Origin: Candidatus Eremiobacterota bacterium
GTDB lineage: Bacteria > Vulcanimicrobiota > CADAWZ01 > Ess09-12
DNA: 60,041 nucleotides
Direction: 5' to 3'
Assembly: GCA_031082125.1 (NCBI GenBank)
Contig: JAVHLM010000011.1
Coordinates: 1 to 60,041, forward strand
Shown piece after piece: positions 48,290-58,101 of the stretch. A model generated the notes under the pieces. That model was not told the origin of the DNA. It saw nothing but the letters and a program-made list of their open reading frames with translations, and did not search any database. The stretch's first letter is position 1; each line of letters opens with the position of its first letter. The position numbers and the translations under genes are program-made.

Positions 48290-48841
48290 ATGGTGAACAC
48301 CACTGAAGAGAGCGGACTTTCAGGTGCGGAAGGATGCGACGGGGGCCACATGTCAGATGAAGCGGCAGCAGAGGGAGCGCGGAGACAGCCCCGCAGGACC
48401 CGCAGGTCCATAAACGCCGAGGAGCTTATCGACATTATCAACATCAGCTCCGAGTCATGGGAGACCCTTGATCCCGGCGATGTGGAGCCCGAGAAGTTCG
48501 ACCGCCTCAGGAATTATTATGTTGATGTGGCAGTCTACAACAGGAAGCTCGAGCTTGTCAAGCAGGGATACTACGATGTCTTCGAGGAGCCCGACCTGAG
48601 GGTCTTCAATGACCGCCTCACCCTCAGCCTGAAAAGCCAGTTGAATCTCAGGGAGCTTATGGTACCGCAGGAGCCGGCCCCGTGCCCTCCGGAAGAAGCA
48701 TTGGAAGCGGCCCCGTGCCCTTCAGAAGAGGCATCGCAAGAGGCCCCGCCAGAAGCCCCGGGGAGCGCCGGCCTGCTTGAGAGTATCATCGGCATCTTTT
48801 TCCCCGGCAAGCCATCTCAGGTGGCGCCATCGATAAGCTGA
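48290..48841 (+). CDS. small protein of unknown function divergent from the repeat protein
   Basis: 183 residues from ATG 48290, with AGGTGAG upstream (GTG 48281 is in frame). A basic RRQPRRTRRSINAEELIDII segment, a helical middle (LRNYYVDVAVYNRKLELVKQG) and an Ala/Pro/Glu-rich low-complexity tail with a final amphipathic ESIIGIFFPG. I do not recognise it. Its 3' end overlaps the convergent regulator gene by 25 nt. The shared operator array suggests joint control with the Arg/Glu repeat protein. Confidence 0.6.
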   Translation: MVNTTEESGLSGAEGCDGGHMSDEAAAEGARRQPRRTRRSINAEELIDIINISSESWETLDPGDVEPEKFDRLRNYYVDVAVYNRKLELVKQGYYDVFEEPDLRVFNDRLTLSLKSQLNLRELMVPQEPAPCPPEEALEAAPCPSEEASQEAPPEAPGSAGLLESIIGIFFPGKPSQVAPSIS

Positions 48842-51357
48842 TAATAGATCTTCATCACTTCGGGATCGGGGGGGATTCCCAGCTCCTTCTCGATCTTCCT
48901 CGAGTATTCATGGTACTTTTTCGCTGCGGCATCACGCCTCCCGGCCCTGCAGGAGGCCTTGAGGTAGGAGACGAGGCCCTGGCCGCTGAATTGATCGGTT
49001 TCCAGCATCAGGCGGGCATATTTCAGGGCTCCTTCATCATTTCCCCTCTCAAGGTGATATTCCGAGATTTTCGCAAGGGCGGAAAGATAGTGCTCCTGGA
49101 GCTCCTCCCTCCTGGTGAGGCACCAGTCCTCGTAAATGCCTTCAAGGAGCGCTCCGGAATAGAGGTTCTGGGCTTTCTGGCAGGCTATCACGGCTTTTTT
49201 CCTGTTCCCTGAAGCTTCATACCCCGCCGCTTCGGCGATGCAGCCTTCGAACTCCTCGACATCAAGCCAGTAGTGGGCATCGGTGTTGAACCTGATCAGC
49301 TCCCCGGATTTCACCACATACTCCTGAATGTCCATGTCATGGTAATGCTTCCTGAAAACGTTCCTGATACGCGTAAGGGTCGTGAGGAGATTCTGCTTGG
49401 CCTTGTCGGGAGGGCTCTCCTGCCAGAAGAGATCCATGAGCCTGTCTTCCGTCACGGGCTTCCCCCCGGCGAGGACAAGGTATATGAAAAGAAGCCTGGC
49501 ATATTTCGTCTGCCAGAGGGCTTCATCGACGGGCCTCCCGTCAAGAAAGAGCGCAAAGTGCCCAAGGCACTGGATTTTCAGAAGCGGCTTCTCCAGGCTG
49601 CTTATCGTGGAGAAGGCCTCAGATGCCTTTTTTCTCACGCCGCCGTCCTGGGAGTCCAGCAGAAGAGAGAGTCCCTCCTTGCCTCTCTTGCCGCCAAGCT
49701 CCTGAAGGAATGAGATGATATATTCCTGCGCGGCAGGGCTCCCCTCGGCAAAGGCTCTTATGGTCTCCAGAGGATAATGCCTTATGAGAAGCCCCACGAT
49801 CCTCCCTGTCTGCTCCCCTTCGATATTCCACTCTACTGCCGAAACGACGAGAGGGAGAAACTCAAGGCCCTCGTCGATGAGGAGCGTGCCTGCCCCCGCC
49901 GAATAGACCTGCGACAGGGTGTCCTCCAGGGCCGATCTGAAGCCCCCGTCAGGCATCTTCCTGAGAAGGAGGAGCTGTTCCAGCATGACCCGTGAGAGCT
50001 CGAGCTCATCACCCCACTTCTCAAAGATCTCTCTTGCTTTCCCGAGGGCAAGACCGGCCTCGCCGCTCTTGCCGAGGCGGCTCCAGATAGTCCCCAGGAT
50101 CATGAAGGCATGGGCCGTGAGCAGGTGCTCACCTATTTTTTTTGCCGACTTCAGGGCTTCCTGGGCGCTTTCAAGGGCGCCCTGAAGATTTCCGCCGTGG
50201 GTGAGGATCCTTGCCCTGAGGAGCTCTGCCTCCACCATCAGATGAATCCGCCCCGGGGCTGAGCTCCCGGAGAGCTCAAAAAGCTTTGCAAGCGCCGAAC
50301 CGGCAAGCACAAAATCCCCTGAGCGTGAGTAATGCTGGGCAAGCATGAGGATGTTCCTGAGGCTCTTCTCCTCTGCATCGCCGGCGCCGGTGCTCTCCTT
50401 CTCTTCCCCGACTGCCCTCTTGAAGGCATCGACCACCGAAGGATCATACCGTGTGCCTGACTCCTTCACGATTATCTCAAGGGCATCGCCGGCGCTCTTC
50501 TTTTCACGGTGGGGCCTCGGTGACACAAGGCTTATGTATGCCTCTGCCACGGCAAGAATCCTGGATTCCAGCGGTATCTCCTCTCCCTCTATGCCTTCAG
50601 GGTACCCTGAGCCGTCGAACCTCTCATGGAGATGGTAAATCATGGGAAGAAGGGGCCTCAGCCCCTCGACATCCTTCAGCATGGTCCTTGCGATGTGGGG
50701 TGTCTCCTTTATCATTGCCTGTTCGGACTCCTCGAGATAATCCGCTTTCTCGAGGACTGCCTCCTTGATGCCGAACATCCCTACGTCGTGGAGAATTGCC
50801 GCGATCCTGAGCAGGTCGAGCTTTTCCTGGGGGAATCCCATCTCGCGGCCTATTTTCATAGCCATGGCTGCCACGTCCTTGGCATGATCATGAAAATGAG
50901 CGTGGTCTTTCTCTACTGCAAGGATGAGATTCTCCAGCAGCTCGTGGTAATGTCGCTGCAGCTCCGCCACGGACTCCCCCTTTCCAACTGAGGTCCCGCA
51001 GCGCTCGAGAGAGCGCCTGATGGAGTCAATGAACTCTTCCATCTGGAATGGCTTCTTCAGGTAGTCATCAGCCCCGAGCTTTATCGCCTCTATGGGTGCC
51101 GAATCCGAGGCGAAGCCTGTCACCACTATGGCCCTGCTCCTCGAGTCCCGGGCCCTTATCTCTTTAAGGGTCTGGAGGCCGTCCATGCCGGGCATTCTCA
51201 CGTCGGAGATGACAAGATCGAAGCTCTCGCCCTTCACCAGCTCCAGGGCTTCCGCGCCGCTTGCTGCAGTCCTCACATGGAAATCCTGCTTTTTCAGCAC
51301 CCTCTCGATGGTGGCGAGAAAAAGCTCATCATCGTCAATTACCAGAATCCTTTTCAT
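48817..51357 (-). CDS. response regulator with HD-GYP, TPR and SARP/BTAD-like DNA-binding regions
   Basis: About 846 residues. The receiver (ILVIDDDE; D52 in VISDVRMPGMDG; YLKKPF) is followed by an HD-GYP cyclic-di-GMP phosphodiesterase domain with HFHDHAKDV, ILHDVGMFGI and HERFDGSGYPEG. A helical TPR-like stretch follows (about 330-570). The last 270 residues form a winged helix (KIQCLGHFALFLDGRPVDEA) and a BTAD helical domain (YSGALLEGIYEDWCLTRREE), typical of SARP/AfsR-type activators. ATG 51357 has AGAGG 9 nt upstream. It would link a phosphosignal, c-di-GMP removal and transcription. Its cognate kinase gene overlaps it by 23 nt. Confidence 0.85.
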   Translation of the reverse strand: MKRILVIDDDELFLATIERVLKKQDFHVRTAASGAEALELVKGESFDLVISDVRMPGMDGLQTLKEIRARDSRSRAIVVTGFASDSAPIEAIKLGADDYLKKPFQMEEFIDSIRRSLERCGTSVGKGESVAELQRHYHELLENLILAVEKDHAHFHDHAKDVAAMAMKIGREMGFPQEKLDLLRIAAILHDVGMFGIKEAVLEKADYLEESEQAMIKETPHIARTMLKDVEGLRPLLPMIYHLHERFDGSGYPEGIEGEEIPLESRILAVAEAYISLVSPRPHREKKSAGDALEIIVKESGTRYDPSVVDAFKRAVGEEKESTGAGDAEEKSLRNILMLAQHYSRSGDFVLAGSALAKLFELSGSSAPGRIHLMVEAELLRARILTHGGNLQGALESAQEALKSAKKIGEHLLTAHAFMILGTIWSRLGKSGEAGLALGKAREIFEKWGDELELSRVMLEQLLLLRKMPDGGFRSALEDTLSQVYSAGAGTLLIDEGLEFLPLVVSAVEWNIEGEQTGRIVGLLIRHYPLETIRAFAEGSPAAQEYIISFLQELGGKRGKEGLSLLLDSQDGGVRKKASEAFSTISSLEKPLLKIQCLGHFALFLDGRPVDEALWQTKYARLLFIYLVLAGGKPVTEDRLMDLFWQESPPDKAKQNLLTTLTRIRNVFRKHYHDMDIQEYVVKSGELIRFNTDAHYWLDVEEFEGCIAEAAGYEASGNRKKAVIACQKAQNLYSGALLEGIYEDWCLTRREELQEHYLSALAKISEYHLERGNDEGALKYARLMLETDQFSGQGLVSYLKASCRAGRRDAAAKKYHEYSRKIEKELGIPPDPEVMKIYYQLIDGAT

Positions 51358-52903
51358 ACCAAGCATCCTCTCCGCTCGCATGCGCCACCGGCAGGAGCAC
51401 CATAAACTCGGAGCCACAGTCTTCTTTTGACTTCACCGTGATTTTTCCTTTCATCTTTTCCACGATAGTCCTCGCAAGCCACAAGCCCAGCCCGGTGCCC
51501 TTGCCCACATCCTTTGTGGTAAAGAAGGGGTCAAAGACTCTTTCCATGAGCGACGGGCTCATCCCTGTGCCGTTGTCAGCGACACAGAGAGAGACATTCA
51601 TTCCCTGCCGCTCAATGACCACCGTCACCTTCCCGCCGGGAGTGCCCTTTGATGCTATGGCATCCCTGGCATTGAGCACCAGGTTCTCCAGCACCGAGAC
51701 GATCTCATCATAAGTTCCCGAAACAGGAGGCGCCTCACCCACCCTTCTTTCCAGCTCCACGCCGGCTTCATCAAGGAGCGGCTTCACCTCGGCAAGAGCC
51801 TGGTCAAGGGCGGAAGCCAGTGAGAATGAGGTGACCTTCAGATCTTCCCTCCGGGCATAGAGAAGAAGGGTCTCCGTGATATTTTTGCAGCGCAGGGCAC
51901 CTTTGCGGATCATCTCAAGTGACTGCTTCACATCGGGATCATCAGTGAACGAGAGGGCAAATTCCGCGTTGGTGAGGACAGTGCCAAGGGGCGTATTCAG
52001 CTCATGGGCAACGCCTGCCGAGAGCTTTCCTATGGAGGCAAGCTTTTCCGCCTGGAGAAGCTGTCCATGGGTCTTCTTCATGAGGGCTCCATAATGCTGT
52101 GCCTTTGCCAGAAGCGCGGTTTTCTCGGCGGTGAGCCTTTTCAGCTCCCCGTTGAGACGCCTCAGCTCCTCGTTTTCAATGCCCTTCCCCATCCCGAATG
52201 AATAGACATAGAGGGTGCCTGCGAGAGGGATAAGAAGGAGCAGCACCACGGGAGGGCCCAGGGAGGTATAGACCAGCACGGTGAGCACCGAAAGGGGAAA
52301 AAGGGAAAAATCAAGCAGGTAAGGGAGAAGATCATGCCTGTGAAGCGGTGCCTTTTTCTCTTCCCTCGCCTTGCTGAAGGACCTGACAAGGAACAAATCG
52401 CTTGCCACGTACCAGAGAAAAAAGCCGGCAGCCGGCAGAAGAAGGGCCGGAGTGAGCCTCCCGAAGGCGAGCGCCCCCCCGGCGCCGCAATATATCATCA
52501 GTGCAGGGATAAACCTTATGGCATCGCCGGAGGCATTCAGCACGACAGTCCAGAGTCGTTCCTTTTTGCCCAGGTCCGCGATGATGCCCCCCAGCAGGAG
52601 AGGCACAACGGCCTCCGGGCCAAAGAGCAGAAGCGACGCCGATATCAGCACATATCCCACATTCAGTGATATCATCCCCGCGAGAGGGATATCACCCAGC
52701 TTGATTCCCAGAAAGAGAGCCGTAAGAACGGCAATGACCTGCCATCCGCTCCCGGAAGGGAACTGCCTGCTGAAGATAAGAAGCATTGCGCAGAGGGCGC
52801 ACCCAAGCAGGGCGCAGGATATGATGAAAATCCTGAGAGAGCGCGGAAGCGTTCTGAAATCTCTTTTCACGGGACTCGAGGATTCCTCTTGACTGTGCAC
52901 CAT
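51335..52903 (-). CDS. membrane sensor histidine kinase
   Basis: About 522 residues from ATG 52903; an upstream start at 52972 is possible. Several N-terminal membrane helices (SLRIFIISCALLGCALCAML to LLLLIPLAGTLYVYSFG) form a MASE-like sensor of unknown signal. A coiled linker leads to HisKA with GVAHELNTPLG, then HATPase with NLVLNARDAI, VADNGTGM and GTGLGLWLA. It has no receiver of its own. Overlap with the HD-GYP/SARP regulator gene makes that protein its likely partner. Confidence 0.85.
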   Translation of the reverse strand: MVHSQEESSSPVKRDFRTLPRSLRIFIISCALLGCALCAMLLIFSRQFPSGSGWQVIAVLTALFLGIKLGDIPLAGMISLNVGYVLISASLLLFGPEAVVPLLLGGIIADLGKKERLWTVVLNASGDAIRFIPALMIYCGAGGALAFGRLTPALLLPAAGFFLWYVASDLFLVRSFSKAREEKKAPLHRHDLLPYLLDFSLFPLSVLTVLVYTSLGPPVVLLLLIPLAGTLYVYSFGMGKGIENEELRRLNGELKRLTAEKTALLAKAQHYGALMKKTHGQLLQAEKLASIGKLSAGVAHELNTPLGTVLTNAEFALSFTDDPDVKQSLEMIRKGALRCKNITETLLLYARREDLKVTSFSLASALDQALAEVKPLLDEAGVELERRVGEAPPVSGTYDEIVSVLENLVLNARDAIASKGTPGGKVTVVIERQGMNVSLCVADNGTGMSPSLMERVFDPFFTTKDVGKGTGLGLWLARTIVEKMKGKITVKSKEDCGSEFMVLLPVAHASGEDAWYEKDSGN

Positions 52904-53054
52904 CACCTCCAGCGCACATGAGATTTCAAGAAAGGAACTTGCTGATCCTCTCCAGAATTCATGGACCATCACATGGCCATGGAGCAGCCATAGCTCCCTT
53001 TGCTCATCATGTAACTGGCAGAGCCATTTAATAACAGGATGGAGAGTATGCTCT

Positions 53055-53606: not shown

Positions 53607-55472
53607 CTACCACAGCACCTCGAAAACATCGGAAGAGTCCGCCCCGAGAGGATGGACTCTTCCCTTCAGCAGGGCGCCTTCATTTTCCCTGCAGGTGGAC
53701 TCACCGATGAGTATCTGGCCGGGCAGGGCCTCGCTGCAGAGCTGAAAGGCTCTCGACACGGTCTTCCCGACAACGGTGTAGTCCTTTCTCTGGTATGACC
53801 CTATATTTCCCACGATGGCGTCGCCCGTGTAAATTCCAATACCCATTGCAATCGGGGCTTCATTCTTCTTGGCCCTGATCCTGTTATACTTCTTGAGGGC
53901 TTCCATCATGCCTATTGCAGCTTCAAGTGCCCGCTCGGAATCGTTCCCGTAAGTGACGGGGGCGCCAAAGTACGCCAGGATGGCGTCACCGATGAATTTG
54001 TCAATTGTCCCCCTGGAGCGGTGAATCACCTCCACCATGAGGGCGAAGTAATCATTCAGCATGGCGACAATCTCCTCGGGCTCCCTTTCCTGTGAGAACT
54101 CGGTATAGCCTCTTATGTCAGAGACAAGGACCGTCACTTTCTGCCTGGTGCCCCCGAGGGCCGATTTCTCAGCACCGGTGAGAATATCGTCCATGACCTG
54201 CCTGCCCACGTATCTTCTCAGCTTCACGCGGATCCACTCATGCTCGGCCACCTGCCTGATAAGCTCTTCAAACCTCGCAATCATCCATGGCGCTCTCAGC
54301 AGCTCCGCCTTGTCCAGGGCCTTCTCGAGGATCTCAAGGGCCCTCAGCTTGTCACCCCGCTCCAGCAGCATCGTGCCGGCCTGCATCTCCATGCCGATAA
54401 GGTCAAAAGGCATGTCCAGCTTCTGGAGAAGCGAAAGGGCCTTTTCATAACACTTATCCGCTTCCTCCCACTCTCTCCTCCGCCAGTGGAACAGGCCGCG
54501 AATCCCATGGGCCTCTGCAAGAAGGCGCTCATTCCCAAGCTCCAGGGCGCTCTTCTCCACTTCATCGAGAGTCCGCTCCACGCCCTCCTCTTCGCCAAGG
54601 AGGACCATGCCATGGGCAAGATCCTTGCGGTTAATCATTACCCATACCCTGTTTCCAAGCATTTCCGCAATTTTCAGGCTCTCCCTCACCAGATCGCCTG
54701 CGCTGCCTGCATCGCCGGAGTGGAGGTACGTCCTTCCCATGTTATTGCACATCACCATCTGCCCGAAGGCATCTTTCTGCTTTCTGCAGAATTCCAGGTC
54801 CCTGGCGAAATACTCAAAGGCTTTCTGATGATCGGCCATCATCAGATGGGCTCTTCCAAGATTTCCCCACGTGATGGCAAGACCCAGCCGGTCACCGGCC
54901 TTTTCCTTGAGCGCCATGGACTCCTCAAAATTGCTCACTGCCTCGGCGAGATCGCCCATGTCAAAATAAAGCTGGCCCCTTGAGTCATAGACTCGCGAGG
55001 CCTCTTCAAGAAGGCCGAGATCGAGGGATATCTCAAGGGACGCTCTGAAGTCATCGAGAGCCTTTGCTTTTTCCCGGAGCCTGTAGTGAAAAATGCCGCG
55101 GTAATGGTGAAAGAGGGCCCTGCCTTCTGCCTGGTGGGGCCCCTGGATCACTGCTGCGGCCTCATCAAATAACCGGCGCGCTTCTTCATAAGCGCCGCCC
55201 TTGATGGCAATGAGGGCGAGCTCCAGGAGCGGGAATATCTCTCCGCCTCTCAAGAGCGGTTTTTCCCGCTGCAATGCCTGGAGGAAATACTGGCGGGCCG
55301 CCTCCCCCTCCCCCCCGAGGCTCTTGATCCTCCCAAGGAAAAAGAGAAGGGAGCCTCCTGTGGATGGGCTTCCCTTCTCCTCAAGAAAAAAAGCATATGC
55401 CTCAGGGAGCTTTCCTTCCCTGACGAGCGCAAAACCCCGCTCGAAAAGACCCTGGGTGAGATAACTCTTCAT
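53607..55472 (-). CDS. TPR protein with C-terminal class III adenylate/guanylate cyclase domain
   Basis: 621 residues. About ten TPR repeats (for example DLAEAVSNFEESMALKEKAG and AFEYFARDLEFCRKQKDAFG) fill residues 1-420. The cyclase domain follows with VLVSDIRGYTEFS (metal Asp), GTIDKFIGDAILAYFGAP (second metal Asp), MGIGIYTGDAIVGNIGS and RKDYTVVGKTVSRAFQL. The substrate residue pattern does not let me separate cAMP from cGMP. Its start lies 5 nt after the stop of the Ro60-like gene, so both are in one operon. A TPR sensor plus cyclase could report binding of another protein. Confidence 0.85.
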   Translation of the reverse strand: MKSYLTQGLFERGFALVREGKLPEAYAFFLEEKGSPSTGGSLLFFLGRIKSLGGEGEAARQYFLQALQREKPLLRGGEIFPLLELALIAIKGGAYEEARRLFDEAAAVIQGPHQAEGRALFHHYRGIFHYRLREKAKALDDFRASLEISLDLGLLEEASRVYDSRGQLYFDMGDLAEAVSNFEESMALKEKAGDRLGLAITWGNLGRAHLMMADHQKAFEYFARDLEFCRKQKDAFGQMVMCNNMGRTYLHSGDAGSAGDLVRESLKIAEMLGNRVWVMINRKDLAHGMVLLGEEEGVERTLDEVEKSALELGNERLLAEAHGIRGLFHWRRREWEEADKCYEKALSLLQKLDMPFDLIGMEMQAGTMLLERGDKLRALEILEKALDKAELLRAPWMIARFEELIRQVAEHEWIRVKLRRYVGRQVMDDILTGAEKSALGGTRQKVTVLVSDIRGYTEFSQEREPEEIVAMLNDYFALMVEVIHRSRGTIDKFIGDAILAYFGAPVTYGNDSERALEAAIGMMEALKKYNRIRAKKNEAPIAMGIGIYTGDAIVGNIGSYQRKDYTVVGKTVSRAFQLCSEALPGQILIGESTCRENEGALLKGRVHPLGADSSDVFEVLW

Positions 55473-55476
55473 ACCG

Positions 55477-56790
55477 CTAAACAGCTTTATTGAACTTCTC
55501 TATCTCGCCGATATACTTGAGAACGGCCTCGGACCAGCCGTCTATGTGGAGCCATGCCCCGTACCCCACGCCGTTCTTGTAGGAGGCCACATTTATCATG
55601 TAGCCGCGTGTCGCGGGATCGTGCACTTTGTCATGGGCCTGCTCGTCGGTGATGACCACAAGCCTGTCAAAGCGGCAGCTTTTGTTGCAGTGATCTATGG
55701 CGGCCCCGAGCATGGTGCTGCCGTGAGGCTGCGAGCTGATTATGGCGTCTCTCAGGGCAAAGCCATGGCGGGCAGGGATCTGAATGGTCTTGTCGGTGAA
55801 GGAGAATATCTCCACATCCTCGCAGAGCTCCCTTGCAAGCACCGCCAGGCCGCATGCGGCATCCATCCTCGTCATGTCGGACTTCCCTGAGAGGCCCGCA
55901 TCCATTGAGCCTGAGATATCGACAAGGAGCACCGTCTTTCCGCCCATTTTCTCAGCACCCTTGAGGCATTTCATCATTGCCTCCTCCAGGTAAGGCTCCC
56001 ACTGGGGGGCATGCCGGGCTGCAGAGATGAATCTGAAGGGCAGGATCCTCTCGGTGTGCATGGACTTGATTGATTCTATCACAAGCTTTTCATCGACAGA
56101 GGCCTGCTTCATGTTTCTCAGGTTCCTGAGCAGGGCAAGGGCTCCCAGCTTTTTCTCCTTCATGAGCCTCTCCCATGTCTCTTTCTTGTCCTTCCCCGCC
56201 GAGAGAGATACCTCCCAGGTATCGGGAGGCGCAAGAGTGCCTTCGGCAAGCTTCTTCCAGATCTCCCCCTGCTCCTCGCTCGAAGGCGAAGGATGGACCA
56301 AGAACATCACGTCCCTGAGCTTCACTGCCCCCTCGCGGTCATATTTTGCGAGCTGGTAGGCATCGAAGCTGGTGAAGGCCTTCGCGAGGCCCTTCTTCAC
56401 CTGCCCCGAGAGAGGCTGCTTCCCCTCCTTCCAATAAATGGCAAGAAACTCTGCCAGCTCGTCGGCTCTCTGGATAACCCGCGGAAGGGTATCGGATACG
56501 AATTTCTTGTGGGGAGCTGAGCGTGCCATCTCTCTCACGATGAGAAGGGGCATATGCCGGAGCTTCATCTGCTCACGTGCTTCGATGGCCAGCAGCGCCA
56601 CCTTGCCCGGCTCCACCTTAGGGATCAGGTCGGCTATGCGCTTCGCGATTTCAACGCCATCCTCGTAAAACTGGTCCTCCCAGAGAAGGCAGGCCAGCAC
56701 GGACCGGCGCAGCTGAAGCTCCGGGCTTATCGACCGCGCGGGAGCGCCTTCGTGAGTCCTCTCCTGTACCTTTTTGTTGAGTTTCGCCAT
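55477..56790 (-). CDS. rsr: Ro60-like TROVE / vWA protein (bacterial Rsr type)
   Basis: 437 residues, shorter than the usual 520-540. An N-terminal TROVE-type helical ring is suggested by RRSVLACLLWEDQFYEDG, VREMARSAPHKKFVSDTLPR and LGALALLRNLRNM. A C-terminal von Willebrand A domain has an intact MIDAS (LLVDISGSMDAG, D291; GSTMLGAAID; VVITDEQ). Bacterial Ro proteins bind Y RNA and help exoribonucleases degrade structured or damaged RNA, notably after stress. The ribosome site is AAGGAGG, 8 nt before ATG 56790. A strong promoter and structured leader lie upstream. A TPR-cyclase follows in the operon, in place of the rtcBA genes sometimes found with rsr. Confidence 0.8.
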   Translation of the reverse strand: MAKLNKKVQERTHEGAPARSISPELQLRRSVLACLLWEDQFYEDGVEIAKRIADLIPKVEPGKVALLAIEAREQMKLRHMPLLIVREMARSAPHKKFVSDTLPRVIQRADELAEFLAIYWKEGKQPLSGQVKKGLAKAFTSFDAYQLAKYDREGAVKLRDVMFLVHPSPSSEEQGEIWKKLAEGTLAPPDTWEVSLSAGKDKKETWERLMKEKKLGALALLRNLRNMKQASVDEKLVIESIKSMHTERILPFRFISAARHAPQWEPYLEEAMMKCLKGAEKMGGKTVLLVDISGSMDAGLSGKSDMTRMDAACGLAVLARELCEDVEIFSFTDKTIQIPARHGFALRDAIISSQPHGSTMLGAAIDHCNKSCRFDRLVVITDEQAHDKVHDPATRGYMINVASYKNGVGYGAWLHIDGWSEAVLKYIGEIEKFNKAV

Positions 56791-56814
56791 TTCATAGCCC
56801 TCCTTTCAGGCAGT

Positions 56815-57028
56815 CCCTCTTTCCCGAAAATGAAAACCGCCGAGGAACAAGCGGCAAGAGTACGGCTGGCTCCTTGCGGGGCCAGTTGTGGTTTCAAAGC
56901 CACTCGAAAATGGTTGAAGTAACTCTTACCTACACCATCGGCGGTCTGTCACTGCGTAGTGTCGGGGAACAGGCGGACAGGGCATTTGTCGTGGGTAACG
57001 AAGTATCCCTGTCCTTCACCACCGACAT
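56815..57028 (-). ncRNA. candidate Y RNA / structured leader upstream of the Ro60-like gene
   Basis: From a predicted start near 57028 the minus-strand RNA opens with TGTCGG (57027-57022), which pairs with CCGACA (56965-56960). An asymmetric internal loop follows, then GGACAGGG (57014-57007) pairs perfectly with CCCTGTCC (56982-56975) around a 24-nt loop. That stem, internal loop, stem, loop shape is the Y RNA pattern. Further hairpins follow: ATGGT/ACCAT, GTGG/CCAC around a TTTGAAA loop (vaguely T-arm-like), and CTGGC/GCCAG. A weak CCGC/GCGG stem then runs into TTTTCATTTT before the rsr ribosome site. Position beside rsr is typical of Y RNA genes; sequence homology is not established. Confidence 0.5.
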
Positions 57029-57032
57029 CATG

Positions 57033-57061
57033 ATTCTAGCAGAAGGGAGATCACCTGTCAA
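57033..57061 (-). promoter_or_regulatory. strong promoter for the candidate Y RNA / rsr operon
   Basis: Minus strand: TTGACA (57061-57056), 17 bp, TAGAAT (57038-57033). The -35 hexamer overlaps the TGA stop codon of the preceding VanX-type gene. It lies about 240 nt before the rsr start codon, with a large untranslated stretch between. Confidence 0.75.
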
Positions 57062-58101
57062 TTCCCCGGGATCTTTTTGGCCCTCAGGTCTTCAAAGGGG
57101 ATATTCATTATGGGATACCTGTCGCTGTCACGGTAATTGAAGTGCCACCACTCGTAAGGATAGACGGTAAAGCCTTCCTGCCCCATCAGGAAGCGGAGCA
57201 CTTCTCTGTTCCACCGTGAAAGGGAGGTCCCCCCCTGGTATCCCGGGGAGGAGCGCTCCCCGAACTCGTCGTAAAAGCCGCCCATGTCGAGGGCTTTTCC
57301 CGTTTTCAGGTCATAGAGCGTCACGTCGGCGGCGACTCCCCTGTTGTGAACCGAGCCGGTCTTAGGGTCGGCTACAAATTTCTTCTGGCTGTCAGGAGTG
57401 CCGTCCCAGAACATCCTGGTCACGTACCACGGGCGGTACGCGTCGAATATGACGAGGCCAAGGCCATGAGCCTTGAGCTTTTTTGAGACCCTTGCGAGGG
57501 CTTCCGCAGCGGGGCGCTGAAGATATGCTTTCGCGCAGCTGTAAAAGGGCGCCCCCATGAAATTGTTGGCGGTGGCATAGCGGATATCAAGCTGCACCGA
57601 GGGATCAAGGGTTATCATCTCCACGAGGTCGGGCGCAAGGAACTGCCCCTCTTCAGCGGGCGGTTTCGCCTTGAGAGCCTCTTCGCGGAGATCCTTTACT
57701 GGCTTTGACGGGTTTATTCTGCCCGTATGCGGGACTCTCTGAAAATACCTGCCCCCGGCCTTGCAGACCGTCACCGCCCCTGTCTTGCTGGAGAGGAACT
57801 CCAGCTTCCATGTGCCGAGAGCATTATCCTGGGGAAGGCTCCACGAGGCAGCGCCCATGGGCCTGAGGGGGATGTATTTTTTGTGATAAAGGAGATAAAG
57901 GGCGTTGTTCCTCTCCAGAACCGTGATGGACTCGCCACCCAGCTCATAATCTCCTATTACCGAGAGCATGGAACCTGATGCTGCCGGGGGCTTTCTCGCA
58001 AAGAGCTCCTCCTCGGTAGACACCATCTGGGCTGAGAGATATCCGGGGAGTCCCAGCGCCAGAATAAAGATGATCGTGATGACCAGCGCCAATCTTTTCA
58101 T
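57058..58101 (-). CDS. VanX/DdpX-type D-Ala-D-Ala dipeptidase, secreted
   Basis: 347 residues with a signal peptide (LALVITIIFILALGLPGYLSA). An N-terminal beta domain (about 45-125) is not part of VanX. The C-terminal half carries the zinc peptidase M15D motifs: AYRP (R223), SVHNRGVAADV (H252, D259) and EWWHF (E317, H320). It should hydrolyse D-alanyl-D-alanine or related peptidoglycan dipeptides in the periplasm; without van genes nearby, a recycling role is more likely than resistance. The ribosome site is GGAAGGAG. It may be co-transcribed with the zinc-ribbon gene upstream. Confidence 0.85.
   Translation of the reverse strand: MKRLALVITIIFILALGLPGYLSAQMVSTEEELFARKPPAASGSMLSVIGDYELGGESITVLERNNALYLLYHKKYIPLRPMGAASWSLPQDNALGTWKLEFLSSKTGAVTVCKAGGRYFQRVPHTGRINPSKPVKDLREEALKAKPPAEEGQFLAPDLVEMITLDPSVQLDIRYATANNFMGAPFYSCAKAYLQRPAAEALARVSKKLKAHGLGLVIFDAYRPWYVTRMFWDGTPDSQKKFVADPKTGSVHNRGVAADVTLYDLKTGKALDMGGFYDEFGERSSPGYQGGTSLSRWNREVLRFLMGQEGFTVYPYEWWHFNYRDSDRYPIMNIPFEDLRAKKIPGN

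Follow-up and report, generated by a model that had tools for sequence, protein, structure and literature searches.

On the minus strand of the window, by which is meant the whole stretch of 60,041 nucleotides analysed here, a gene resembling rsr follows a long untranslated leader and is itself followed by the gene of a nucleotide cyclase. The Ro60 RNPs of bacteria have been worked out for very few species, and the locus raises the questions of what the leader encodes and whether the cyclase belongs to the same system. An initial annotation of this DNA had answered with a single candidate Y RNA and with a possible Ro-RNP tied to cyclic-nucleotide signalling.

A compact Ro60-like protein

The rsr-like gene (55477..56790, minus strand) encodes a protein of 437 aa. 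The protein is matched by Pfam TROVE with 60.5 bits (E 2e-16, cut-off 23) and by vWA_Ro60 with 28.1 bits, which is likewise above the Pfam cut-off. The latter match comprises residues 286-393, a vWA domain encoded at 55612..55935 (minus strand) that bears a MIDAS (DISGS ... TDEQ). The MIDAS residues D291, S293 and S295 of DISGS, and T381-D382 of TDEQ, do not vary across 27 sequences. The TROVE/vWA assignment with intact MIDAS in the initial annotation is thereby upheld, and the TROVE profile match that it had set as a test was obtained. An AlphaFold2 model, computed with 21 relatives as input, has a mean pLDDT of 87. A Foldseek search with this model has only Ro60/Rsr structures among its 13 best PDB hits; the E-values are 1e-17 for Ro60 of Thermus phage phiLo and 1e-13 for D. 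radiodurans Rsr (2nvo), and animal Ro60 was also matched. The model aligns along its whole length with Rsr 2nvo and Ro60 1yvp. The narrow NCBIfam equivalog RNA-bind_Rsr, on the other hand, scores it at 28.3 bits, far below the cut-off of 900, and the protein is therefore placed in a compact Ro60 clade and not with classical Rsr. By its profile matches and modelled structure, the gene product is a compact Ro60/TROVE protein with intact MIDAS and a predicted Ro60 fold.

Promoter and layout of the leader

The leader begins at a near-consensus promoter, TTGACA-17-TAGAAT, which agrees with the consensus at 11 of 12 positions and carries a TG ahead of the -10 box. The -35 box (57056..57061, minus strand) takes in the TGA stop codon (57060-57058) of the upstream neighbour, a D-Ala-D-Ala dipeptidase-like gene (Peptidase_M15, by Pfam/profile match; 57058..58101, minus strand) that lies outside the system. 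The TG-extended -10 box (57033..57038, minus strand) follows after the 17-nt spacer, and Y RNA 1 (Y1) starts 6 nt later, so that its first base is the expected +1 of the promoter. Two sites of this kind were observed where shuffles predict 0.6. From the first base of Y1 to the ATG of rsr the leader measures 237 nt, and its order is promoter, Y1 (68 nt), a 16-nt gap, Y RNA 2 (Y2, 106 nt), the Shine-Dalgarno sequence AAAGGAGGG (56798..56806, minus strand; read off the sequence) and the start codon. The promoter, with its -35 box on the stop codon of the preceding gene, agrees with what had been noticed initially.

Two Y RNA-like elements

Y1 (56960..57027, minus strand) is a minimal form with a 16-nt apical loop, in which the stems TGTCGG/CCGACA and GGACAGGG/CCCTGTCC pair exactly, as the initial annotation had described for its two-part stem. 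The predicted folding energy is -28.9 kcal/mol (z -3.5), which none of 200 shuffles equalled. The further hairpins mentioned in the same annotation turn out to be a second complete element, Y2 (56838..56943, minus strand), with a 54-nt apical part of two hairpins and a predicted folding energy of -40.9 kcal/mol (z -3.8; again 0/200 shuffles as good). The idea of a Y RNA in this leader thus holds, while the number was underestimated: there are two elements, not one. Both follow a common plan. On the 5' side an outer stem of 6 is followed by TGGTGWA, an inner stem of 8, nTACTTC and the variable apical part; on the 3' side GCY-TGTTCC lies between the returning stem strands. The permuted T-arm/D-arm of the tRNA-like module was sought and is absent from both.

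Rfam gave no Y RNA match in the entire window at the gathering threshold or in the rsr region at E 10, and its YrlA model (RF02553) matched neither Y1 nor Y2. A covariance model built for these elements, R1, gives 65.9 bits for Y1 and 66.2 bits for Y2. R1 included the RNAs of the window itself, and a second model, R2, was therefore built without any sequence from the host genome. The held-out R2 scores Y1 with 64.9 bits and Y2 with 56.3 bits, the best background being 13.8. Both elements lie immediately upstream of the Ro60 gene, and the 237-nt leader is predicted to encode two small tandem Y RNAs of the kind carried by Ro60.

Conservation in relatives

Of the 67 named relatives that a contig scan provided, most are Alphaproteobacteria and Acidobacteriota, and two are Bacillota. 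A scan for the motifs plus stems under strict rules yielded 123 elements in the fetched loci, all on the gene strand and 0 on the opposite one, and none in Markov-shuffled sequence. With R1 the matches numbered 270, every one of them on the gene strand and 0 on the other, and each of the 67 loci had at least one. The tRNA-like module occurs in Y RNAs beside rsr at 58 of these loci. An Rfam search of the loci of six relatives returned tRNAs only, with no Y RNA match.

The stems covary strongly among homologous leaders, a result that the initial annotation had asked for. In a set of 49 diverse elements, all 14 pairs of the two stems change on both sides, and the covariation score is 0.858; shuffles score 0.209 +/- 0.017, and slid partners no more than 0.175. 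This set had been chosen partly by pairing, and a second set of 94 elements, chosen by motif only, was therefore examined. Its outer stem is paired in 93% versus 65% with swapped partners and its inner stem in 75% versus 57%; none of 500 partner swaps reached the observed pairing.

Such elements also accompany phage relatives and one relative on a plasmid of Deinococcus gobiensis. We also note that in phages of Brevundimonas, Xanthomonas, Caulobacter and Microcystis (L105, L106, L107 and L108) a compact Ro60 gene is adjoined by 2-7 Y RNAs. Annotated tRNAs overlap Y RNAs in two of these, a tRNA-Gln in the Caulobacter phage and a tRNA-Ser in the Brevundimonas phage, so these annotations may represent tRNA-like modules of Y RNAs. 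Three genomes of the same phylum with a long-type TROVE protein (G008, G026 and G027) gave no R1 match, so R1 reaches the Y RNAs of the compact clade and of some phages but not every Y RNA. In another genome of the phylum (G012), which lacks a TROVE match, a weak Y RNA-like match of 28 bits was seen at L098 1501-1589.

Y RNAs away from rsr

R1 gave six matches in the 7.43-Mb host genome, with scores from 54 to 71 bits and the next best at 16.5. These are Y1, Y2, one element ahead of a paralogous rsr on contig C29, and three elements unlinked to rsr on contigs C24, C1 and C3. Judged from these matches, the predicted Y RNA set of the host is unusually dispersed, with two members at the window rsr, one at the paralogue and three elsewhere. 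The paralogous rsr is 64% identical to that of the window, and its locus has the order promoter-Y RNA-rsr-era, era being identified by an NCBIfam equivalog. The stand-alone elements, all three far from rsr, lie on C24 (L092 4720-4846, minus strand), C1 (L093 4855-4960, minus strand) and C3 (L094 4815-4945, minus strand). Shortly upstream each has a box that resembles TATAAT or TATACT, and a hairpin with a T-run comes after the C1 element. Of the six, only the C24 element has a tRNA-like module as in YrlA, its T-arm, acceptor-like helix and D-arm coming in permuted order. Rfam YrlA matches this element alone, with 40.5 bits (E 5e-6), which does not reach the Rfam threshold of 69. The host genome also encodes PNPase (1014 bits). 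RtcB was found only at C3:46182, not on the window contig, and neither rsr was seen to have an rtc neighbour.

Relatives of the same order at first seemed to be without Y RNAs because none precedes their rsr. Three of them (G001, G002 and G004) have 1, 3 and 1 Y RNAs, respectively, on contigs other than that of rsr and immediately ahead of era (NCBIfam equivalog), with promoter-like boxes: L112 4787-4853 (minus strand) in G001, L111 5588-5912 in G002 and L113 2693-2763 in G004. The search found none in a fourth, G003, which is 89% complete. In three Acidobacteria genomes (G062, G083 and G074), near-identical minimal Y RNAs of 67-68 nt lie near tRNA genes. Two are situated in large tRNA clusters, each between two tRNA-Gln genes: one in G062 (L114 4622-4688) with an RtcB-like gene downstream, and one on contig C122 of G083 (L118 1325-1391), whose downstream gene is confirmed as RtcB by Pfam. 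Another copy in G083, on the contig C29 of that genome, lies amid eight tRNA genes (L117 4704-4771), and the copy in G074 adjoins tRNA-Phe and tRNA-Pro (L119 2155-2222, minus strand).

Era is a GTPase of 16S rRNA maturation. Taken together, the dispersed Y RNAs with promoters of their own in this order, those of its family f2 that are unlinked from rsr and sit immediately ahead of era, and the copies in Acidobacteria tRNA clusters, two of them followed by rtcB, might point to a role of Ro60 and Y RNA in rRNA and tRNA maturation, with Y RNAs that searches confined to rsr would miss. We hold this reading tentatively, at slightly less than an even chance. Novelty is possible for the dispersed set, the linkage to era and the copies in tRNA clusters.

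Proposed mechanism and alternative explanations

We consider it very probable that the leader is a tandem pair of Y RNAs that are co-transcribed with rsr, are either freed from the transcript or terminated ahead of rsr, and associate with the ring of Ro60. The stems and motifs are read from sequence; excision and binding are what we infer. The transcript would have the first base of Y1 as its start and extend over Y2 and rsr, and probably over the gene of the cyclase. Both Y RNAs would be excised from the leader or terminate ahead of rsr, and would bind the Ro60 ring through the conserved basal stem. In papers on the D. radiodurans and Salmonella systems, basal-stem binding to the Ro ring, substrate gating and PNPase tethering are described (PMC4726728, PMC8394870, PMC7790460). 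By analogy, a bound Y RNA may cover or gate the RNA-binding face of the ring, and Y RNAs with a large apical module may tether an effector, for example the PNPase of the host. Y1, with its 16-nt loop, would then serve mainly as a gate, and the C24 element, with its tRNA-like module and own promoter, would be the tether. An RNA made ahead of the Ro message could keep the partners in proportion.

Could the leader instead act in cis as an autoregulatory site? Ro would then control rsr expression by binding to the Y-like structures of its message, and Y RNA would not be made in free form. Y1 and Y2 do share a leader with one promoter, and at 56855-56836 the end of Y2 coincides in part with a weak terminator-like site, one of 4 in the region where 1.5 are expected; an alternative hairpin that uses the 3' strand of Y2, with a T-rich tract after it, could be an attenuator. 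However, the same RNAs stand alone with their own -10 boxes, one with a hairpin-T-run terminator, and occur before era and in or beside tRNA clusters, where they could not act on rsr in cis. They vary, moreover, in length and apical part, from 64 to more than 200 nt, around an unchanging basal stem. Autoregulation in cis is on these grounds unlikely, albeit the strongest of the alternatives. Another possibility, hairpins that arise incidentally in a long leader and are not Y RNAs, would fit the missing Rfam matches of Y1 and Y2, but it is hardly credible given the held-out R2 scores, covariation across phyla, the 270:0 strand bias and the placement upstream of orthologous genes.

The remaining alternative, an Ro-RNP tied to cyclic-nucleotide signalling, takes the neighbouring cyclase as a functional partner. 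The TPR-class III nucleotide cyclase gene noted initially (53607..55472, minus strand) is indeed present, on the same strand and 4 nt past rsr; its product matches Guanylate_cyc (E 2e-21) and contains TPRs. The 4-nt gap makes co-transcription with rsr likely. However, no cyclase-like ORF was found in the fetched flanks of the 67 named relatives or in the 1.5-kb flanks of four same-order ones, and the paralogous rsr has era downstream instead. With 11 class III cyclase domains in the host genome, finding one beside rsr is unremarkable. Active class III adenylate/guanylate cyclases have a transition-state Asn and Arg besides the metal-binding Asp pair; the window cyclase keeps the Asp pair, with Ser in place of Asn and Gln in place of Arg, while two other cyclases of the host retain both residues. 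The cyclase looks like a chance neighbour that is not part of the conserved system; it was rejected as a conserved Ro partner, and the proposed tie to cyclic nucleotides appears very improbable. Farther along the window, a large regulator with response-regulator receiver, HD and BTAD (SARP-type) domains (48817-51417, minus strand) is adjoined by a histidine kinase gene (51335-52972).

Implications

Y RNAs accompany the Ro60 gene of the compact clade in all of the named relatives examined. A covariance model of the predicted Ro-binding stem picks up Y RNAs missed by Rfam, and reveals those off rsr, ahead of era and in or beside tRNA clusters. The role of Ro60 in healthy cells becomes testable: does it lie in rRNA and tRNA maturation, and are minimal Y RNAs gates and tRNA-like ones tethers?

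Comparison with known systems

The rsr-Y RNA locus of Deinococcus radiodurans was reportedly described by Chen et al. in 2000 and 2013, and bacterial rsr-Y RNA pairs are said to have been found by Chen et al. in 2014 in more than 250 species. Deletion of rsr is reported to lower Y RNA levels in D. radiodurans. The window locus is predicted to belong to this known bacterial arrangement, a Ro60 gene with Y RNA genes next to it (Chen et al. 2014, cited in PMC7790460). The known loci (PMC4726728, PMC8394870) resemble that of the window in having a Ro60 ortholog with adjoining Y RNAs on the same strand, in the long basal stem formed by the 5' and 3' ends, and in the occurrence of minimal forms and forms with long apical parts. 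The window differs in its compact 437-aa Ro60 and in two tandem leader Y RNAs that lack the tRNA-like module; the host genome differs in three Y RNA genes far from rsr, one of which is the only tRNA-like one.

Like YrlA (RF02553) of Salmonella and Mycobacterium, the C24 element has a permuted T-arm, acceptor-like helix and D-arm; its match spans positions 24-84 of the 114 in the model and leaves the basal stem outside, while Y1 and Y2 have no match. The RNA repair operon rsr-yrlBA-rtcBA of Salmonella (PMC7790460) shares with the host the joint occurrence of Ro60 and Y RNAs and the presence of RtcB in the genome; in the host, by contrast, RtcB is encoded on another contig, C3. The closest solved structure is that of Ro60 from Thermus phage phiLo (PDB 9l5y, 9kop), with 26% identity and TM 0.75/0.71 to the window protein, than which it is somewhat longer (463 modelled residues).
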